Part shown: positions 4,333 through 26,081 of the stretch, piece after piece | Layout: the number at the start of each line of letters is the position of its first letter | How positions within the stretch are numbered: position 1 is the first letter of the stretch | Assembly: GCA_012520035.1 (NCBI GenBank) | Contig: JAAYOY010000103.1 | Location: forward strand, 1 to 33,208 | Source: Bacillota bacterium | GTDB lineage: Bacteria; Bacillota; Dethiobacteria; DTU022; UBA8154 | Length of the DNA stretch: 33,208 bases | Direction: 5' to 3' | The notes under the pieces: model-generated | Seen by the model: the letters and a program-made list of their open reading frames with translations, nothing else | Told to the model about the DNA's origin: nothing | Database searches by the model: none | Program-made: the position numbers and the translations under genes

Positions 4333-5316
4333 TTATCTTGCAAGTATTTCCGCCAAATGATAATCATCCCAGGATAACTTCTTCCTGGATAGCAATTCTT
4401 CATAAGCTACGGAATCTATACAACCGTTACGGCAGACAACCGCCCGGCCGCTCTTTCTTTCCAACAACAAATCAATAGCCTTAGCCCCCATGCGGCTGGC
4501 CAAAATGCGGTCAAAAGCCGTGGGAGTTCCGCCCCGCTGCAGGTGCCCCAGGATAATCACACGCACATCCATCCGGATAACCCTTTTAATCTCCTCACCA
4601 ACATAAAGCCCTCCCCCGGCTCCTTCAGCAACCAGAATAACACTATGCAATTTTCCTCTTTTTATCCCCCGCAGGAGGCGATTGCAGACCTCCTCTACGT
4701 CAATTGGATCTTCAGGAACAATAATCGATTCAGCTCCCCCGGCCAGCCCGGCAAAAAGCGCCAATTGGCCGGAGCTGCGGCCCATAACTTCTATAACAAA
4801 GATTCTTTCGTGTGAAGTGGCTGTATCTCTTACCTTGTTGATCGCATCAGTTACGGTATTAACAGCCGTATCAAAACCAATAGTATAATCCGTCAGGGGA
4901 ATATCATTGTCAATCGTGGCAGGGACCCCTGCAGTAGCAATACCTTCTTCTTCCAGGGCATTTGCCCCTTTGAATGAACCATCACCGCCGATTACAACCA
5001 CCCCTTCTATCTTTTCCTCCAGTAAAAAGTTCCTGGCCTTCTGCCTCCCTTCCACCGTTAGAAATTCAGGGGATCTGGCCGTATGCAGTATTGTCCCGCC
5101 CCTGTGTATGATATCCGCAACTGAACCGAGTTTCATCTGAAATAAATCCCGGTTAATCAAACCGCTAAAGCCTCTTTTGATACCATAAATCTCCAGGCCG
5201 TGATAAATTCCCTTACGGACGACCGCTCTGATGGCGGCATTCATCCCCGGAGCGTCCCCACCGCTGGTCAGGACAGCAATTCTTTTTACTCTTTCCTCTC
5301 CGTTCAACTGCTTCAC
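4333..5316 (-). CDS. pfkA: ATP-dependent 6-phosphofructokinase
   Basis: Phosphorylates fructose 6-phosphate to the 1,6-bisphosphate. Visible motifs are the N-terminal nucleotide loop RIAVLTSGGDAPGMNAAIR, GGDGSFKGA with a glycine where PPi-dependent enzymes have aspartate (supporting ATP use), the catalytic TIDND, the substrate-binding MGRSSG, and GHLQRGGTP near residue 250. VPATIDND has Ala where many ATP enzymes have Gly, a common clostridial variant as far as I recall. The frame starts at a GTG (5316) with poor spacing from AAAGGA. A TTG at 5307, preceded by AGAAGGTGA at 6 bases, is an equally good start and gives an N terminus closer to the family's. It lies between dnaE (65 bases upstream) and pyk. 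Confidence 0.96.
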   Translation of the reverse strand: MKQLNGEERVKRIAVLTSGGDAPGMNAAIRAVVRKGIYHGLEIYGIKRGFSGLINRDLFQMKLGSVADIIHRGGTILHTARSPEFLTVEGRQKARNFLLEEKIEGVVVIGGDGSFKGANALEEEGIATAGVPATIDNDIPLTDYTIGFDTAVNTVTDAINKVRDTATSHERIFVIEVMGRSSGQLALFAGLAGGAESIIVPEDPIDVEEVCNRLLRGIKRGKLHSVILVAEGAGGGLYVGEEIKRVIRMDVRVIILGHLQRGGTPTAFDRILASRMGAKAIDLLLERKSGRAVVCRNGCIDSVAYEELLSRKKLSWDDYHLAEILAR

Positions 5317-18263: not shown

Positions 18264-18965
18264 CTAGGGACACGGGCATCTAAGCATATATCCCAGCCCG
18301 ATACGAGATATAATATGCTCCGGCTTGGACGGGTTTTTTTCAATTTTTTTACGCAGATGCCAGATGTAGGCACGCAAATAATCCCTTTCATCGCGATATT
18401 CTGAACCCCAGACACGGGTGAGGAGTTCCTGATGAGAAATGAGCTGATTCGGATGCTTCGCCAATTCACTTAATAACCGAAATTCAGTAGACGTAAGCTC
18501 CACTTTCCGGCCGGATATTTCAACAGACGCCTGGTCAAAGTTTATTATAAGATCATCACATTTAAACAAAGAACTTTCCTGTGGCTGCGGAGCCCCTCCC
18601 GAACGGCGAAGAACCGCTTTTACCCTTGATAAAAGCTCCTGTGAGCCGAAGGGCTTGGTCAGGTAATCATCGGCTCCGGCCTCAAATCCTCTTACTTTAT
18701 CCTTCTCCAGAGCCTTTGCAGTAAGCATAATAACCGGCACCCCGGAAAAAGAGCGTATGCGCCTTAATACATCATATCCATCTAAATCACCGGGGAGGAT
18801 AATATCGAGGATAATTAAATCAGGGTTCTCAACTGCAGCCTTGCGTATGGCTTCGCCCCCATCATAAGCGCATAAGACCGTATAACCCCGGGCTTCCAGA
18901 TTTGCCTGCACAAGCCTTACCAGACGTAATTCGTCATCTACTACCAGGATGGTCGGTTTTTTCAT
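18264..18965 (-). CDS. OmpR/PhoB-family response regulator
   Basis: A 233-residue regulator with a receiver domain (acidic pair D10/D11, phospho-acceptor D54 in LIILDIILP, T82, K104) and a C-terminal winged-helix DNA-binding domain (ELTSTEFRLLSELAKHPNQL, RDYLRAYIWHLRKKIE, IISRIGLGYML). After the phosphorylation site it has LPGDLDGYDV. The gene starts two bases after the histidine kinase stop, and its GGAGG lies inside the kinase's last codons, so they form one two-component system. Their targets are not known. Position just downstream of the oxidoreductase cluster and of an unknown gene suggests control of those genes. Confidence 0.95.
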   Translation of the reverse strand: MKKPTILVVDDELRLVRLVQANLEARGYTVLCAYDGGEAIRKAAVENPDLIILDIILPGDLDGYDVLRRIRSFSGVPVIMLTAKALEKDKVRGFEAGADDYLTKPFGSQELLSRVKAVLRRSGGAPQPQESSLFKCDDLIINFDQASVEISGRKVELTSTEFRLLSELAKHPNQLISHQELLTRVWGSEYRDERDYLRAYIWHLRKKIEKNPSKPEHIISRIGLGYMLRCPCP

Positions 18966-18966
18966 A

Positions 18967-20235
18967 CTACACGCCTCCCTTTCCCCAGTTCGGGCTTTTT
19001 ACTGTGTGAATACCGGGACCTGTCCCGGTTAGAGGCAACGTAAAACAAAAGGTACTTCCCTTGCCGGGGGTACTGCTTGCCCATATTCTCCCACCTTGCT
19101 TTTCGACAATCTCACTGGCGACGGGTAACCCCAGACCCGTTCCGGCAAGATCGGTCTTAACACGGTAAAATTTTTCAAAGAGTCGGTTTAAGTGCTCCGG
19201 TGCTATCCCCACCCCTTCATCCGCTACGCTTACCGTTACTTCCCTGTTGTCAACCCTGCACTGTACAACAATAAGGCCACCTTCCGGAGAATATTTTATT
19301 GCATTTTCCAAAAGGTTGTCCAGGACCTGCCTGGTACGGACAGGGTCGGCCTCAATAACCGGAAAATTCTTTGGTATGCTGACTATAAATTTGTGTTTCG
19401 CAGTGCGTAACCGCGCATCGCCAACAGCTTTTTCCACAATTCGCGCTAAAAGAACCGGCTCTTTTTTCACGCTCAACAGACCGGACTCGATCATGGAAGA
19501 TTCCATAAGGTCATCAATCAGTTCTTTCATTGTATCGCTTTCAGCATCAATAATTTTCAAAAATTCGTTTCTCTCCTTCTGGTTCCACTCACCGTTATTA
19601 TCAAGCAATGTTGTAGCATAACCTTTAATACAGGTAAGCGGAGTGCGCAACTCGTGGGACAGGGTACAGACTAAACTTGAATATTTTTTCTCCTGACTCT
19701 GCCTCAAGGTTTCCGCCTTAAAAGCAAACGGCCCCATAGTTTTAGCTATTCTCCTAAATAAACCAAGGTCCCGCGGGGATAATTTATCGGAAACAGTCCA
19801 TAAAAACAGAAGGCACCCGATACGGGTACCATCACTTAGGTCCATAGGAACACATAAAAGAGACTTCATCGAATAACAATCTGCATCACCGGTTATACAA
19901 CCCGCAAGCGCTTTTACAGTTCCTTTCCCTGTCTGCACAAAAGGCTTTCCTGTTTTAAAAACCTGCGCAATTACGGATAAGCACGCTGCTTCTACTTCGA
20001 GGCACAAAACATGTTCACTGGAAAAACCACTGACAGATACCGGAATAAGCTGCTTTCTGGAATCATCATAGAGGTAGACAATAACCGCATCGATTCCAGT
20101 CAGGACACTTTTTAACAGAGATGCTGTATTTGAAAGAAAGGTATCAAGATCAAAAGCTTCTAAAAGCTTGCTGAAGATAAGAGTAATTGAACGTCTCTCA
20201 GATATTTTGCGGCGCCGGTTAGCTTGATGCCTCAT
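18967..20235 (-). CDS. Soluble GAF-domain sensor histidine kinase
   Basis: A 422-residue kinase without membrane segments. A GAF-like sensor domain spans about residues 25-175 and contains seven or so cysteines, for example in AGCITGDADC. A HisKA domain follows with H194 in LSHELRTPL, then a HATPase domain (N box LDNLLENAIKYSPEGG, G1 DEGVGIAPEH, G2 GTGLGLPVASEI). The frame stays open to 20385, but an extended -10 promoter at 20293-20301 lies inside that extension, which favours the ATG at 20235. The Shine-Dalgarno sequence is weak (AAAGG, 13 bases away). It should sense an intracellular signal; the cysteine-rich GAF would suit a redox or metal cue, but that is a guess. Confidence 0.9.
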   Translation of the reverse strand: MRHQANRRRKISERRSITLIFSKLLEAFDLDTFLSNTASLLKSVLTGIDAVIVYLYDDSRKQLIPVSVSGFSSEHVLCLEVEAACLSVIAQVFKTGKPFVQTGKGTVKALAGCITGDADCYSMKSLLCVPMDLSDGTRIGCLLFLWTVSDKLSPRDLGLFRRIAKTMGPFAFKAETLRQSQEKKYSSLVCTLSHELRTPLTCIKGYATTLLDNNGEWNQKERNEFLKIIDAESDTMKELIDDLMESSMIESGLLSVKKEPVLLARIVEKAVGDARLRTAKHKFIVSIPKNFPVIEADPVRTRQVLDNLLENAIKYSPEGGLIVVQCRVDNREVTVSVADEGVGIAPEHLNRLFEKFYRVKTDLAGTGLGLPVASEIVEKQGGRIWASSTPGKGSTFCFTLPLTGTGPGIHTVKSPNWGKGGV

Positions 20236-20292
20236 ACGAGCATCACTGCCTTTCTCATTCCCCTGCCAGACGAAGACTGATTTATTAATTTT

Positions 20293-20301
20293 ATTATACC
20301 A
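20293..20301 (-). promoter_or_regulatory. Extended -10 promoter for the histidine kinase
   Basis: Read on the minus strand, this is TGG then TATAAT, an extended -10 element. The best -35, TTCAAG 16 bases further upstream, is poor, as is usual for extended -10 promoters. The predicted transcript starts near 20286, 50 bases before the kinase ATG, and would give the two-component genes a promoter of their own in the 202-base gap. Confidence 0.5.
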
Positions 20302-20437
20302 TAAAACTGTCTTACTTGAACCTAATTCTATAGTATAGTAATACAGACAGCTACTTACTATTACAGGCAGCTTGAGAAAAACCATCTCTATAGCTCATAC
20401 CGCATTCGGCTGTATGTTTTATTTATTTTACTGCCGG

Positions 20438-20932
20438 TTACTTCCGGCATCCCTGACTGCTCCATACCCGAAGTGCGGGAGTATACAAAGAACCGACGGC
20501 TGCGGAAAGGCCCTTCCGTCCCAGAAAATCATCCTCGTCTAGAAAGTATACGTTTAATAAGACTGATAAGCCGTCAGCTTGCGGGGAAAACATTTTCCGG
20601 TATTCGGCAAGAAGGACGTCTTGTAAAGCATCTGCGATAGATTCAATAGCAGCAGTATGTTTTCTTACGCGAACAATCATTGTTAGCGGTAAAGTAACCG
20701 TTATTTTTTCGTCCGGCATTTCGGGGTAGAGGAATACTTCTAAAACATGCTCACTGGTTTCCCCCAGATAAATGCCAACCTGCATAGCCAGCCTGTATCG
20801 AAAGTACCCAAGTGCATCAGCATCATTATTCTTGAGCAGTCTGATTGCACCTGTATCCCCTATTTTTTCTCCGGTATAACGCAAAGAATCCTCAAGCATA
20901 GCAGTTACATGGTCAACCAGTTTCGTATTCAT
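20438..20932 (-). CDS. Hypothetical protein next to the two-component system
   Basis: A 164-residue protein I do not recognise. It is soluble with mixed secondary structure. The N-terminal part has KLVDHVTAMLEDSLRYTGEKIG, which looks helical, then a beta-like middle (VGIYLGETSEHVLEVFLYP, KITVTLPLTMIVRVRK) and a helix (AIESIADALQDVLLAEYRKM). A single cysteine lies near the C terminus. The start is sure: a perfect AAGGAGG is 7 bases before the ATG at 20932 (GTG at 20938 is inside the spacer). It sits between the glutamate-synthase-like gene (133 bases upstream) and the GAF kinase, all in the same direction. A role in sensing or assembly for either neighbour is possible but unproven. Confidence 0.8.
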   Translation of the reverse strand: MNTKLVDHVTAMLEDSLRYTGEKIGDTGAIRLLKNNDADALGYFRYRLAMQVGIYLGETSEHVLEVFLYPEMPDEKITVTLPLTMIVRVRKHTAAIESIADALQDVLLAEYRKMFSPQADGLSVLLNVYFLDEDDFLGRKGLSAAVGSLYTPALRVWSSQGCRK

Positions 20933-21065
20933 GCACACGCCTCCTTACTAAGGGACGGCCCCTTTAACTCATTTAGCATTTATGCGAAATATAAACAGTG
21001 AGTGGATTCCTTTCCTTTCCTGGCTATAAACTTTTACCAAAAACCAATTACAGCATGGCTGTGGT

Positions 21066-22649
21066 TCAACCCTCCAGGATCCTGCTTATTTCTTCCTGAT
21101 CGGTTTCCATAATATAGGAAATCCCGCTTACTTCGCTTGCCTCTCTGGTCAAAGCGGCAATATCATCCCTCGAAATATAGCTCAGGGCAAATTTGCGGCT
21201 TCCGCACATGATCTGCTTAAGCCCCTGTGACAACCTTTCACAGAAGGTATAGACACCCATAGCAGCCGTCGGAACCTGCTCAAACCTTTCGTCGCCAAGC
21301 ATATTTTTAAGTTCGGCAGCGGTTACAAAGATCTGTTCCCTGCTCCTTCCAAAACGCTCTACATAAACAGGAAGATTTTCTTCTCCAATCTGCCGGCCGA
21401 TTGTCTTCGCCACCATTGCCGCAGCCAGGGGTGCGCGGGCCATACCGATGCACTTCACATACGGTGCACCGAGCGCCAGCCCTTTAAATATTTGGTCTTC
21501 CATCGTAAAACCACCGGAAAATACCAGATCCGGCACGTATTCACCCTTCGCGGCCAGAGTGGCACAGATATTATGAGCAAGGGAATGAAGCTCAACAGGC
21601 GGAATACCCCATTCATTCATCATTCTCCATGGGCTCATACCTGTCCCCCCTCCTGCACCGTCCAGGGTGAGCATATCCACTTTAGCCACCGAGCAGAACT
21701 TTATAGCCCGGGCCAGATCCGCAGGCCGATAAGCACCTGTCTTGAGGGAAATGTATTTTGCACCTGCTTTCCGCAGTTCATCCACCCTCCGGACAAACGT
21801 CTCCAGTTCAGCCATACCAACGCGTGAATGGCGTTCAAACTCTTTGAATGCGCCCCGCTTAAATTTTTCTGCAACCTGTGGGTTTTCCGGATCGGGAATC
21901 ACGATATATCCTCTTTTTTTCAAAGTAAGCGCGCGTTCGAGATCGTTTATCTTTACCTCACCGCCGATATCCTTGGCACCCTGACCCCATTTTATCTCCA
22001 CGGTACGGACCCCGAGCTCCTGTATGGCATACTCCTGCACTCCCAGGTTGGTATCCTCCACGTTTGCCTGGACAACAACGTCCCCGTAACCATCTGTCTG
22101 CCACTCCTGGAAGAGCTTTACACGCCTGGCCAGTTCCGGGCTTTTTGCAACCTTCCCGTTTTTTATCTCTACTTGAGGATCCATACCGCAGACATTCTCA
22201 CCAATCGTAACGATTACCCCCGAAAGCGCTGCGCCCACCGCAAGACCGTTCCAGTTCATGCTGGCTACACGGGTTGACCCCATTGCCGAAATTACCATCG
22301 GGAATCTCAACTTTATTCCCTTATCGCGTCCCAGCCTCGTCTCCAGGTTTACTGAAGAAAAAATAGCCTTGTCGCTGTCCGGTTCTATGCCCATCGCCCC
22401 GGTTGTTGTCCCCATTATAGAAAAGTGAGAGTAGTCAACAGGGTAGTTCTTCTCTGAAGCTGTACTAATAAGCCCAAACGGCTGCGGATAGAGAACCTCA
22501 TGCCCGCGGTAAGCGGATTTACCGACCTCGCACATTCCGATGCAACCGTCAATACAGGTCACACACATCCCGCTCAGGCGGTTGATAGAATCCTCAGTAC
22601 GATTTTTAGATAGAGTAGCGGCACTGGAATTTATTCTCGAAAAACTCAT
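21066..22649 (-). CDS. FMN-binding glutamate-synthase-domain protein (GltB-like, no glutaminase domain)
   Basis: A 527-residue protein built around the FMN-binding synthase domain of glutamate synthase (PF01645/COG0069): PMVISAMGSTRVASMNWNG, EIKWGQGAKDIGG, KYISLKTGAYRPADLA, and TLDGAGGGTGMSPWRMMNEW are the recognisable barrel motifs. The amidotransferase domain of true GltB is absent. Where GltB has its 3Fe-4S cysteines (C-x5-C-x4-CP), this protein has only KCIGMARAP. Instead, four cysteines lie at the N terminus, C29, C32, C36 and C40 (MCVTCIDGCIGMC), which could hold an Fe-S cluster. The ATG at 22649 is 7 bases after AAGGAGG. It starts one base after the HoxU-like gene, so it should belong to the same complex. 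The substrate is unknown. Confidence 0.88.
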   Translation of the reverse strand: MSFSRINSSAATLSKNRTEDSINRLSGMCVTCIDGCIGMCEVGKSAYRGHEVLYPQPFGLISTASEKNYPVDYSHFSIMGTTTGAMGIEPDSDKAIFSSVNLETRLGRDKGIKLRFPMVISAMGSTRVASMNWNGLAVGAALSGVIVTIGENVCGMDPQVEIKNGKVAKSPELARRVKLFQEWQTDGYGDVVVQANVEDTNLGVQEYAIQELGVRTVEIKWGQGAKDIGGEVKINDLERALTLKKRGYIVIPDPENPQVAEKFKRGAFKEFERHSRVGMAELETFVRRVDELRKAGAKYISLKTGAYRPADLARAIKFCSVAKVDMLTLDGAGGGTGMSPWRMMNEWGIPPVELHSLAHNICATLAAKGEYVPDLVFSGGFTMEDQIFKGLALGAPYVKCIGMARAPLAAAMVAKTIGRQIGEENLPVYVERFGRSREQIFVTAAELKNMLGDERFEQVPTAAMGVYTFCERLSQGLKQIMCGSRKFALSYISRDDIAALTREASEVSGISYIMETDQEEISRILEG

Positions 22650-22650
22650 C

Positions 22651-23358
22651 TTACGGCCTCCTTTTTGCTTTGACTTCTCTATTTGCATCTAATTCACATG
22701 CCACACAGGGATCCATAAAGCACATTTTATCCTCAAAATAGTCCAAACAGGGCTGTTGCAGGTTAAGGCAAGCGTTGCATACCGGCTGCTCCTCCTGCGG
22801 CCCCTGGCACCTGCTCTGGCAGGCGGGGCAGACATACATACACCCTCCACATAAACGGCATACCTCGGATTCCTTATCAAACGGCGTTGTAACCCTGCGA
22901 TTGCTTCCCCGGTGGGCGAACCCTATAGCCTTTCCCTGCATCTGTTCGGCACACATGCGCACACAGAGCCCGCAGAGAATACAGTCTTCGTGCCAGGGGG
23001 TAAAGCGAACTGTAGTAACATGGTACTTTGATGCCAGGTCCTGGATAACTTTAGACGAGGGACAGGTCGCCAGGTAGAGCTCGATGAGCATCTTTCTCCT
23101 TTTTATAACCCACTCCGAATCGGTCCTCACCACCAGACCTTCTTCTACCCTGTATGTGCAGGAGGTTACTAACTTCGACTGCCCGGGCATGCCGATTTCT
23201 ACCAAACAGAGCCGGCAGGCCCCATAGGGACTCAACCCCTCCAGGTAACAAAGGGTCGGAATGTTCATGCCGTAAAACCGGGCAGCCTCGAGAATGGTCA
23301 TCCCTTCATCCACATCTATCCTGAGCCCGTTCAGCGTCATTTGCACCACTATTTTCAC
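22651..23358 (-). CDS. HoxU/NuoG-N-terminal-like iron-sulfur subunit
   Basis: A 235-residue electron-transfer protein. An N-terminal [2Fe-2S] ferredoxin domain has C37, C48, C51 and C67 (LCYL, GACRLC, VTSC). It is followed by the NuoG-like linker, where the usual cysteine cluster is reduced to LATCPSS, then two [4Fe-4S] motifs (DCILCGLCVRMC and VCRLCGGCMYVC). The last ~60 residues contain nine cysteines with CNAC, CFMDPCVAC and similar pairs, more than a HoxU protein needs. It resembles the N-terminal part of [FeFe]-hydrogenase HydA without the H-cluster domain. The GTG start at 23358 is two bases after the NuoF-like stop, with AAAGGA upstream. It probably carries electrons between the NuoF-like and GltB-like subunits. 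Confidence 0.86.
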   Translation of the reverse strand: MKIVVQMTLNGLRIDVDEGMTILEAARFYGMNIPTLCYLEGLSPYGACRLCLVEIGMPGQSKLVTSCTYRVEEGLVVRTDSEWVIKRRKMLIELYLATCPSSKVIQDLASKYHVTTVRFTPWHEDCILCGLCVRMCAEQMQGKAIGFAHRGSNRRVTTPFDKESEVCRLCGGCMYVCPACQSRCQGPQEEQPVCNACLNLQQPCLDYFEDKMCFMDPCVACELDANREVKAKRRP

Positions 23359-23360
23359 CC

Positions 23361-25229
23361 CTATCCTTTCGTAATCGCATCAGAAACACAGGCCTCCACG
23401 CAAGCCCCGCACCTGGTACACAGTTCAGGATTAATGCTATAGCAGCCTTCTTCCATTTCTACGATAGCCCCTGCATGGCATTGCTCGGCGCAGGAACCGC
23501 ATCCGATACACGAATCTTGATCAATGCTGTAGCGGAAAAGGGACCGGCAAACCCCCGCCGGGCAGCGTTTATCCCTTACGTGTGCAAGGTACTCATCGCG
23601 AAAATACCTAAGCGTGGACAAAACAGGGTTGGCCGAAGTCTGGCCCAACCCGCACATGGAGGTGTCCTTTACCGTTACCGCAAGTTCCTCCAGAAGATCG
23701 AGGTCCTCTATGGAAGCGCTACCGGTCGTTAAGCGGTCGTAGATCTCCAACATGCGCTGAATCCCCACACGGCATGAAAAACATTTTCCGCAGGATTCGC
23801 TTTTTAAAAACTGCAGGAAATAACGGGCCAGGTCCACTACACACGTGTCCTCGTCCATCACAATCATGCCGCCGGAACCCATAATAGAGCCCGCCTGGGC
23901 GAGATCTTTAAAATCAACTTTTAAATCGAGCATTTCTTCCGGGAGGCACCCGCCGGAAGGACCACCGGTTTGCACAGCCTTGAAACGCTTTCCGTTCTTG
24001 ATGCCCCCGCCGATACCAAAAATAATCTGCCTCAATGTAGTTCCGAAGGGAACCTCTACAAGGCCCGAGTTATTAATTTTGCCGACAAGGCAGAATATTT
24101 TCGTCCCGCCGGAGCTCTCAGTGCCGGTTTCATGATAAGCAGCAGCCCCGCGATTAATAATCAAAGGTACATTGACAAATGTTTCAACATTGTTGATCAC
24201 GGTCGGCATTCCCCTGAAACCCGCATTCGCCGGAAAAGGAGGTTTTTGACGCGGTTCGCCGACTTTCCCCTCGGCAGCGCGAATCAGGGCGGTCTCTTCA
24301 CCGCAGACAAATGCACCGGCACCCTTGCTGATGATTACTTCAAAATCAAAGCCGGAGCCGAGGATGTTCTTCCCAAGAAGCCCCAGCTCACGGGCCTGCC
24401 GCACCGCCTGTTCGATCTTAAGGACGGCTGTCGGATACTCAATACGGATATAGATAATTCCTTCTTTTGCTCCAACCGCATAAGCTGCGATGATTATCCC
24501 CTCCAGGACCGCATGGGGATTACCTTCGAGCAGGCTTCTATCCATAAAAGCGCCCGGATCTCCTTCATCGGCATTACAGAGAATGTACTTTTCATTCCCG
24601 GCAGCCGCACGGCAGAATTCCCATTTGAGCCCCGTAGGAAAGCCCGCCCCCCCTCTTCCGCGCAGATCTGCCTCTTTTATCTCGGCTATCACAGCCTCAG
24701 GAGGCATTCCGTCAAGTACTTTAGCCAGGGCAGCATACCCGCCACGGGCGATATAATCATCGATATCAAGGGGATTGATATACCAGCCCGTTTCCAGAAG
24801 AGTGCGGGTTTGCAGTTTATAAAAGGGAATGTCGTAAGCGCAGGTGATTTTGCGGCCGTCCGCCGGATCCGTATATAAAAGCCTGTCGACAATCTCCCCC
24901 CGCAAAACAGTTTTCTCCACTATCTCAGCAGCATCTTCCGCCTGGACCTGCTGATAAAAAACAGCTCCGGGGAAAACAAGCACCAGAGGCCCTTTCTCAC
25001 AGAAACCCAGGCAACCGGTTACCTTCAGTTCTACACTCCCTGCCAATCCGCGCTCCTGGAGTACCTCCTCAATTGCCGGCGCCAGCTCGCGCGAACCGCA
25101 AACTGAACAACCTGTATCCCCACAGACCACTAGACGCTGCTTTTTTGGGTCAAGCCTGTCCTTCAACATCTCCCGCAGGTTCTTCAGATCAACCGGTTTT
25201 GCTAACTTACTTCTTATTCCAGTGTTCAT
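23361..25229 (-). CDS. NuoF/HydB-like NAD(P)H- and ferredoxin-linked flavoprotein
   Basis: A 622-residue subunit with the domain order of HydB/HndC from electron-bifurcating hydrogenases. It starts with a thioredoxin-like [2Fe-2S] domain (VVCGDTGCSVCG, then VTGCLGFC). The NuoF core follows, with the FMN/NAD site RGRGGAGFPTGLKWEF, DEGDPGAFMDR and GAGAFVCGEETALI, an SLBB region, and the [4Fe-4S] site SCGKCFSCR plus SMCGLGQ. The C terminus has two ferredoxin motifs, CIGCGSCAEQC and CTRCGACVEAC. It is expected to exchange electrons between NAD(P)H and ferredoxin through FMN. The frame opens at 25328, but GGGGG seven bases before the ATG at 25229 and the family N terminus fix the start. It is downstream of the NuoE-like gene by 215 bases. 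Confidence 0.93.
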   Translation of the reverse strand: MNTGIRSKLAKPVDLKNLREMLKDRLDPKKQRLVVCGDTGCSVCGSRELAPAIEEVLQERGLAGSVELKVTGCLGFCEKGPLVLVFPGAVFYQQVQAEDAAEIVEKTVLRGEIVDRLLYTDPADGRKITCAYDIPFYKLQTRTLLETGWYINPLDIDDYIARGGYAALAKVLDGMPPEAVIAEIKEADLRGRGGAGFPTGLKWEFCRAAAGNEKYILCNADEGDPGAFMDRSLLEGNPHAVLEGIIIAAYAVGAKEGIIYIRIEYPTAVLKIEQAVRQARELGLLGKNILGSGFDFEVIISKGAGAFVCGEETALIRAAEGKVGEPRQKPPFPANAGFRGMPTVINNVETFVNVPLIINRGAAAYHETGTESSGGTKIFCLVGKINNSGLVEVPFGTTLRQIIFGIGGGIKNGKRFKAVQTGGPSGGCLPEEMLDLKVDFKDLAQAGSIMGSGGMIVMDEDTCVVDLARYFLQFLKSESCGKCFSCRVGIQRMLEIYDRLTTGSASIEDLDLLEELAVTVKDTSMCGLGQTSANPVLSTLRYFRDEYLAHVRDKRCPAGVCRSLFRYSIDQDSCIGCGSCAEQCHAGAIVEMEEGCYSINPELCTRCGACVEACVSDAITKG

Positions 25230-25270: not shown

Positions 25271-25310
25271 TTGTATTATGGTTCAGCTCCTTGTATAATG
25301 GTTCAACCCC
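25271..25310. repeat. 20-bp tandem repeat in the nuoF-like gene leader
   Basis: Two adjacent 20-base copies (25271-25290 and 25291-25310) agree at 17 positions. Each contains ATGGTTCA, that is TGAACCAT on the coding strand. A further TGAACCAT occurs once in the leader of the NuoE-like gene at 25937-25944. The repeat begins 41 bases upstream of the NuoF-like ATG. Confidence 0.7.
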
Positions 25311-25312
25311 AA

Positions 25313-25337
25313 TAAGGTTTATTGGCAATTAACCTTA
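25313..25337. promoter_or_regulatory. 25-bp interrupted palindrome, operator candidate upstream of the nuoF-like gene
   Basis: TAAGGTT (25313-25319) and AACCTTA (25331-25337) are exact reverse complements around 11 bases. The same 7-11-7 plan, with 17 of 25 bases equal on the minus strand, is found at 25965-25989 over the promoter of the NuoE-like gene. Matching geometry and shared bases in the arms and in the centre (TTAAnTGC) make a chance origin less likely. Confidence 0.5.
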
Positions 25338-25444
25338 AATCTCATACATGCCTTTTCCCTTTAATGCAAAACAGTTTTTTAGAAAATAAAACTTTTTAAG
25401 GTATAAAAAAATTCCCTGATGCTCTACTGCTGCCCTTTTCGTTC

Positions 25445-25921
25445 TTAGGACACCGCCTTTTTCCTGAGAGCATTAAGGATTTCTCGCACCTCGCCGGGAT
25501 TAAGGTTTCCATAATACTTCCCATCGACTACCATTGCAGGTGCAAAAGCACAGCAACCGAGACAATTCACCGTCTCAAGCATAAATTCACCGTCGGAAGT
25601 GATTTCCCCGGGCCGTATACCCAATAGCTGAAAGATCTCCTCAATAAGCTTTCCGCCTCCCCGTATATGGCAGGTAGTTCCGGCGCAAACGCTAATCTGG
25701 TGCCTGGCCCGCGGCGTTAAAGACAGTGAATTATAAAATGTTGCCGCATGATAGATATCTATCAGAGGGATTCCGGTTTTCCGGGAAAGCATTCGCAGCA
25801 CTTCTTCCGGTAAATAGCGAAAATGTTCCTGGATCTCCTGCAACAGTGGAACCACAGACAAACCGTGTTTTTTAACCGCACCTTCAAGAACATCTTCAAC
25901 ATCTGTCAACTGTTTGGACAT
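25445..25921 (-). CDS. NuoE-like [2Fe-2S] thioredoxin-fold subunit
   Basis: A 158-residue subunit of the NuoE/HydC/HndA family. The N-terminal helical bundle ends in IYHAATFYNSL, and the thioredoxin-like domain binds [2Fe-2S] through C79, C84 (CAGTTC) and C120, C124 (NCLGCCAFAP). The motif GTTCHIRGG is diagnostic. It pairs with NuoF-type flavoproteins. In bifurcating hydrogenases it is the small subunit. AAGGGGTGA is placed just before the ATG. It is the first gene of the cluster, behind an extended -10 promoter at 25971-25998 and downstream of the terminator that ends the acyl-CoA ligase transcript. Confidence 0.95.
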   Translation of the reverse strand: MSKQLTDVEDVLEGAVKKHGLSVVPLLQEIQEHFRYLPEEVLRMLSRKTGIPLIDIYHAATFYNSLSLTPRARHQISVCAGTTCHIRGGGKLIEEIFQLLGIRPGEITSDGEFMLETVNCLGCCAFAPAMVVDGKYYGNLNPGEVREILNALRKKAVS

Positions 25922-25964
25922 TATTTCACCCCTTCCATGGTTCAGCTATCCTGCCCCAGGCGCC

Positions 25965-25989
25965 TAATATTTTATAGCAGTTAATATTA
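25965..25989. promoter_or_regulatory. 25-bp interrupted palindrome over the nuoE-like gene promoter
   Basis: TAATATT (25965-25971) and AATATTA (25983-25989) are exact reverse complements around 11 bases. The site covers the -10 element at 25971-25976, so a bound protein would block RNA polymerase. It is related to the site at 25313-25337. Confidence 0.5.
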
Positions 25990-25998
25990 AAAAGTCAT
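25971..25998 (-). promoter_or_regulatory. Extended -10 promoter for the oxidoreductase cluster
   Basis: On the minus strand ATGACT (25998-25993), a 16-base spacer ending in TGC, and TATAAA (25976-25971) form a sigma-A promoter with an extended -10. The transcript would begin near 25964, about 43 bases before the NuoE-like ATG. Confidence 0.55.
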
Positions 25999-26029
25999 AT
26001 AAACAAGAGCGAGGATATTAAAATTGCAT

Positions 26030-26081
26030 AAAAAACCACTATCCATTTCAGCAGGCCGTAGCCGTAATGGATAGTGGTTTT
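26030..26081 (-). terminator. Rho-independent terminator after the acyl-CoA ligase gene
   Basis: A perfect 16-bp stem (26032-26047 with 26066-26081) encloses an 18-base loop that contains a small GGC/GCC stem. On the minus strand the stem ends in a run of six T (26035-26030). It lies 82 bases after the ligase stop codon and just upstream of the cluster promoter, so it separates the two units. The plus-strand reading also ends in TTTT and could work weakly. Confidence 0.85.

Follow-up and report, generated by a model that had tools for sequence, protein, structure and literature searches.

A candidate two-box operator for an operon-encoded OmpR/PhoB-family regulator at a nuoE promoter in Bacillota

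The window (the whole stretch of 33,208 nucleotides analysed here) carries on its minus strand an operon in which genes for NuoE-like, NuoF-like and ferredoxin subunits are followed by those for a GltS-like protein, orf166, a histidine kinase and a response regulator. The question raised by this locus is how the operon is controlled. The original prediction placed control in two related 25-bp palindromes, one in the leader of the NuoE-like gene and one in that of the NuoF-like gene, and proposed either a common regulator or duplication of a promoter–operator region within the operon. The genes are as follows.

25445 to 25921, minus strand: NuoE-like 2Fe-2S thioredoxin-fold subunit, the first gene of the operon (PF01257)
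23361 to 25229, minus strand: NuoF-like subunit, N-terminal 2Fe-2S and C-terminal 4Fe-4S (PF01512, PF10589, PF01257, Fer4)
22651 to 23358, minus strand: NuoG-N-terminal/HoxU-like ferredoxin subunit (domain and family model matches)
21066 to 22688, minus strand: glutamate-synthase FMN-domain protein, GltS-like (PF01645)
20438 to 20938, minus strand: orf166, a degenerate protein of a minimal-nucleotidyltransferase-like family (distant homologues match Polbeta/NTP_transf_2)
18967 to 20385, minus strand: GAF-HisKA-HATPase histidine kinase (Pfam)
18264 to 18965, minus strand: OmpR/PhoB-family response regulator, the proposed binder of boxes D and P described below (PF00072 and PF00486)

The palindromes exist as described: both are perfect, with 7-11-7 geometry on the minus strand, and 17 of their 25 bases are equal. 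The first does overlap the extended −10 region, and the arm bases that differ between the two are compensatory.

25965 to 25989, minus strand: palindrome 1, TAATATT-AACTGCTATAA-AATATTA read from 25989, overlapping the latter half of box P together with the −10; regarded as incidental
25313 to 25337, minus strand: palindrome 2, TAAGGTT-AATTGCCAATA-AACCTTA read from 25337, in the nuoE–nuoF spacer, with no box; judged incidental

By chance, about 0.5 perfect 7-arm palindromes with a loop of 0–20 are expected per leader. The window contains 80 of them and 133 non-overlapping pairs of the same geometry, only one of which, the pair originally noted, is at least 68% identical. When the two leaders were dinucleotide-shuffled, 1.65% of trials gave a common palindrome geometry, and none of 2000 combined this with 68% identity. 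Twelve control loci from elsewhere, each about 20 kb long, had 0–7 same-geometry pairs at least 68% identical in each. A scan of the window for such pairs is expected to yield about one, and the significance of the pair is not confirmed.

The same gene string was found in five further genomes (loci L006, L007, L008, L044/L016 and L045/L017; a sixth locus, L074, lacks nuoE at a contig edge). The original prediction had named loss of the palindromes in related genomes as evidence against itself, and none of the five orthologous clusters keeps either one. The arms of palindrome 1 pair at 2–5 of 7 positions in the five orthologous promoters, compared to 7 of 7 in the window. Palindrome 2 is present as a single copy in the genome. 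The spacer that contains it lacks a conserved counterpart in the three closest relatives, whose spacers measure 60–165 bp. Both palindromes look accidental.

What is conserved 5′ of nuoE is a direct repeat, namely TTTTTATGACTTTTTAATATT, with an ATAAAAT −10 located 5 bp beyond it and a similar block 31 bp upstream. The promoter can be described as two 22-bp boxes, D and P, each a direct repeat with an 11-bp period and of the form TTTTTATGNNN-TTTTWANNNTN.

26013 to 26034, minus strand: distal box D, TTTTTATGCAA-TTTTAATATCC, two 11-bp half-sites; architecture common to six nuoE and three glutamate dehydrogenase (gdh) promoters
25982 to 26003, minus strand: proximal box P, TTTATATGACT-TTTTAATATTA, two 11-bp half-sites; ATGACT and the T-run near-invariant in six orthologues
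25969 to 25979, minus strand: extended −10, TGCTATAAAAT, with TATAAA at 25971–25976; ATAAAAT invariant in the four closest orthologues
26032 to 26081, minus strand: 21-bp hairpin and T-run from a repeat search, probable terminator of the upstream AMP-ligase-like gene

The transcription start is predicted near 25964, and if the −10 is taken as 25971–25976, box D covers approximately −70 to −49 and box P approximately −39 to −18. No good −35 was found at the nuoE promoter; box P occupies its place. Box P starts 31 bp after the start of box D in the window (31–32 bp in relatives) and ends 5 bp before the −10, and the orthologous promoters keep the arrangement [11+11]-9/10-[11+11]-5-[−10], except that one has 7 bp in place of 5. 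The mean self-similarity of these promoters peaks at a lag of 31 (0.63), with a lesser peak at a lag of 11 (0.49). In nine promoters the 11-bp half-sites lie head to tail and in register, as is expected of OmpR/PhoB-family operators, whose tandem half-sites recur every 10–11 bp or so. Palindrome 1 is then just the end of box P plus the −10 region. The original prediction considered the pattern a poor match to Rex, and this holds: the site resembles a Rex operator in being AT-rich and at a redox operon, but Rex sites are inverted repeats whereas the element conserved here is a direct repeat, and TTGTTAA-N4-TTAACAA was absent from both leaders on inspection.

The T-run tail of the hairpin (26032–26034) is part of box D, and a single T-tract possibly serves as both terminator tail and operator, L006 and L082 being alike by eye. 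A simple terminator scan gave no match at this hairpin. The conservation of box D could be partly for termination, which weakens the argument for D, not for P. One could go further and regard the T-rich block as mainly a terminator tail joined to an AT-rich UP-element, serving a promoter that is strong and constitutive and needs no regulator. The hairpin does run into box D, and A–T tracts upstream of a −10 are common; however, neither a terminator nor an UP-element needs fixed places for ATG in both boxes, a spacing of 31–32 bp, an 11-bp period or conservation in distant promoters, and other nuoEF-fdx-GltS operons do without the arrangement. We consider this explanation highly improbable.

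The leader of the NuoF-like gene presents a different picture. The best single-box score there is 12.1, compared to 25.8–32.4 for the true boxes. Gapped local alignment of the nuoE and nuoF leaders scored no better than shuffled sequence (P = 0.12 for whole leaders, 0.16 for the promoter core), and the suggested duplication of a promoter–operator region is therefore unsupported. The TGAACCAT motif was correctly reported: the leader of the NuoE-like gene has one copy and that of the NuoF-like gene two.

25937 to 25944, minus strand: TGAACCAT, just 5′ of the nuoE ribosome-binding site; variable in relatives
25278 to 25305, minus strand: tandem TGAACCATwATACAA with two TGAACCAT copies (25298–25305 and 25278–25285); not conserved

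A further, unrelated copy occurs at 4975, and 0.97 copies are expected in the window; the pair in the nuoF leader is a local tandem with its copies 20 bp apart. With no comparable box, no significant leader similarity and no conservation, a second operator–promoter before the NuoF-like gene finds no support. We give almost no credence to a single regulator binding both palindromes and so co-regulating nuoE and nuoF promoters, perhaps after duplication. The perfection of the palindromes, their shared bases and their compensatory arm differences speak for it, as does a joint pattern that matches only these two sites in the whole genome, although that pattern was built from them. The lack of conservation by itself already largely refutes it, and other loci have 0–7 similar pairs per 20 kb or so; the leaders are not significantly alike and that of nuoF is without boxes. 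The palindromes and the TGAACCAT copies are accordingly given no part in the regulation proposed here. The idea that the nuoF leader holds a mobile or repeated element was rejected because the sequence is single copy in the genome, and that of an N-terminal extension of NuoF through the spacer (from TTG 25328) because the extension is not conserved; the gene starts at ATG 25229, with a conserved AGGGGGTGTGTTGATG. The window gave no Rfam match to a structured RNA or riboswitch.

The box arrangement is kept in all the orthologous operons that end with orf166, the GAF histidine kinase and the OmpR/PhoB-family regulator. A search for the two-box pattern covered 98 genomes of the class, of which seven have orf166, kinase and regulator; six of the seven contain the pattern. 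In these it lies at the nuoE promoter, the match in G019 being on a separate contig that ends just downstream of the boxes and carries the matching promoter sequence; in the seventh genome (G021) the contig starts inside a box. The other 91 genomes gave five matches, all of them on contigs with no nuoE-like gene listed; a reversed control pattern gave none in all 98. The association between pattern and module has a Fisher P of 3e-6, a value that overstates independence, the genomes being related. The degenerate pattern behind these counts was written with knowledge of the gdh promoters, and the held-out tests are only the consensus scan and nuoE-trained profile described below. In ten homologous nuoEF-fdx-GltS operons that have no kinase or regulator (L046–L055), the two-box pattern was found in none (P = 1e-4, again overstated by relatedness). 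The boxes travel with the regulator genes rather than with the enzyme genes. In the window's own genome both the strict and the degenerate pattern occur once, at the nuoE promoter only, and the regulon therefore looks narrow.

A phylum-wide search with the orf166 alignment led to four distant genomes, G117, G160 and G285 (one family) and G324, in which the kinase and regulator genes are followed by a glutamate dehydrogenase gene and orf166. Glutamate dehydrogenase was identified by a Pfam check in G117 and by sequence similarity in the other genomes. The regulators of these genomes are the best whole-genome matches to the window's regulator (47–53%). In G117, G160 and G285 the intergenic stretch 5′ of gdh contains the paired boxes with unchanged spacing and a −10-like hexamer at equal distance; in G324 the boxes, though recognizable, are degenerate and do not match the pattern. 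The nuoE-promoter consensus was scanned before the gdh promoters had been examined, and its matches with up to 3 mismatches, in the loci then compared, were solely at nuoE- or gdh-type promoters. A profile trained solely on nuoE promoters was run over 624 kb; among genes outside the training set, the three gdh promoters took ranks one, two and four. A search among relatives of G117 for more genomes of the gdh group found no new ones.

Which protein binds the boxes? A winged-helix regulator gene of the appropriate type lies in the same gene string as the boxes, and the linkage is kept in the relatives and in the distant genomes. The nearest solved relative of the regulator is KdpE (4kny, full length), and a query of its DNA-binding domain, made with the orthologue consensus, also found KdpE as the nearest solved structure (3zq7). 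Among full-length NCBIfam models the best is YycF, with all models below their cut-off. At kdpFABC, E. coli KdpE binds positions −72 to −50, where TTTATA-N5-TTTACA forms a direct repeat with an 11-bp period; the recognition-helix residues R193 and R200 and the wing residue T215 are required (PMC3264566). Both arginines are kept in the window's regulator, and the wing threonine is replaced by serine. The two operators are alike in having two T-rich 6-bp direct repeats with a 5-bp spacer and an 11-bp period, and box D of L016 reads TTTATA-N5-TTTATA, close to the KdpE site. They differ in that the window half-sites are TTTATG-N5-TTAATA and a second box covers the −35 region. Given the kinship to KdpE, the conserved arginines and the shared 11-bp direct-repeat form, the fit between protein and site type appears good. 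The system probably works like KdpDE but is not KdpDE itself, because its kinase consists only of GAF, HisKA and HATPase domains, with no KdpD sensor domain in a Pfam scan, and its flanking and target genes are different: glutamate/redox enzymes (nuoEF-fdx-GltS) in place of a K+ pump, with no kdpFABC linkage.

PhoB pho boxes form arrays of 11-bp direct repeats in which tandem boxes occur and the proximal box, some 10 bp before the −10, takes the place of the −35. The nuoE promoter shares these three features; the half-site is CTGTCAT for PhoB as against TTTTTATG here, and signal and targets differ. OmpR/PhoB-family sites are generically T-rich direct repeats, with half-site rules that overlap within the family. 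For this reason the boxes might belong to a different member, such as a true KdpE or a PhoP/ResD-like protein, with the encoded regulator acting elsewhere; several further OmpR-type regulators, with 40–44% identity, are encoded in the window's own genome. This is unlikely, as the boxes track kinase, regulator and orf166, being found in six of seven genomes with that module and in none of the ten homologous operons that lack it, and as they recur at an unrelated gene that adjoins an orthologous regulator.

The reading that we prefer, and consider likely, is of an activator-dependent two-box nuoE promoter bound by the operon-encoded regulator, in an autoregulated two-component system. It is based on the architecture of the boxes, their conservation, their co-occurrence with kinase and regulator, their reappearance at gdh and the kinship to KdpE. 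The cytosolic GAF kinase would sense an internal signal, presumably redox or nitrogen/glutamate status, and phosphorylate the regulator. Dimers of the phosphorylated regulator would bind boxes D and P, which are centred three helical turns apart, on one face of the DNA, each box offering two head-to-tail 11-bp half-sites of KdpE/PhoB type. The proximal dimer, at box P in place of a −35, would recruit RNA polymerase to the extended −10 and so increase transcription of the operon; the regulator gene would be included if it is co-transcribed, giving feedback. Four points are inferred: binding to the boxes, the direction of control (activation, not repression), the nature of the signal, and co-transcription. 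The original suggestion that the adjacent response regulator acts here is thus retained in part, its predicted binding being to the conserved direct repeats and not to the palindromes, for which a common regulator is very unlikely. In place of accidental palindromes there is now a testable operator and a named candidate binding protein.

The two types of target, GltS-like with NuoEF-ferredoxin and glutamate dehydrogenase, hint at glutamate/nitrogen or redox balance, and re-use of operator and regulator at both suggests a two-component system that senses nitrogen or redox state. Literature searches on this two-component system found nothing specific and no description of such a system; the hosts are anaerobes that have hardly been studied genetically. 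More tentatively, GAF kinase, KdpE-like regulator and pseudo-nucleotidyltransferase could be a horizontally or anciently shared module dedicated to controlling glutamate formation in anaerobic Bacillota, attached through the same two-box operator to a NuoEF-ferredoxin-driven glutamate-synthase-like complex or to glutamate dehydrogenase according to lineage.

The orf166 protein of the window has no Pfam match. Its distant homologues (L075, L076, L077 and L081; 18–28% identity) have a GS...D.D motif that is lost in the window protein, and their genes lie beside those for a GltS-like protein or glutamate dehydrogenase. The window protein has the look of a pseudo-nucleotidyltransferase with a link to glutamate metabolism. 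The kinase reading frame seems to start about 50 codons too early, with the true start probably near 20235; its homologues align from residue 44–57 in most orthologues, and from residue 23 in L008.

The NuoEF and ferredoxin genes adjoin a glutamate-synthase FMN domain (21066–23358), and the glutaminase and GltD parts are absent. The product may be a glutamate synthase linked to NADH/ferredoxin, or else an electron-bifurcating enzyme of a different kind. The Sporomusa-type Nfn is a NuoE/NuoF/GltD-NuoG complex (PMC7483475), and this identity was rejected because in the window operon the FMN domain is of GltB type and a GltD fusion is lacking. In G022 (L045, 4852–6396) the NuoF-like match is about 48 residues short and lies 1.5 kb before the ferredoxin gene, which may reflect an insertion or a different C-terminus. 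In the window, the ferredoxin and GltS-like genes share 38 bases, at the end of the former.
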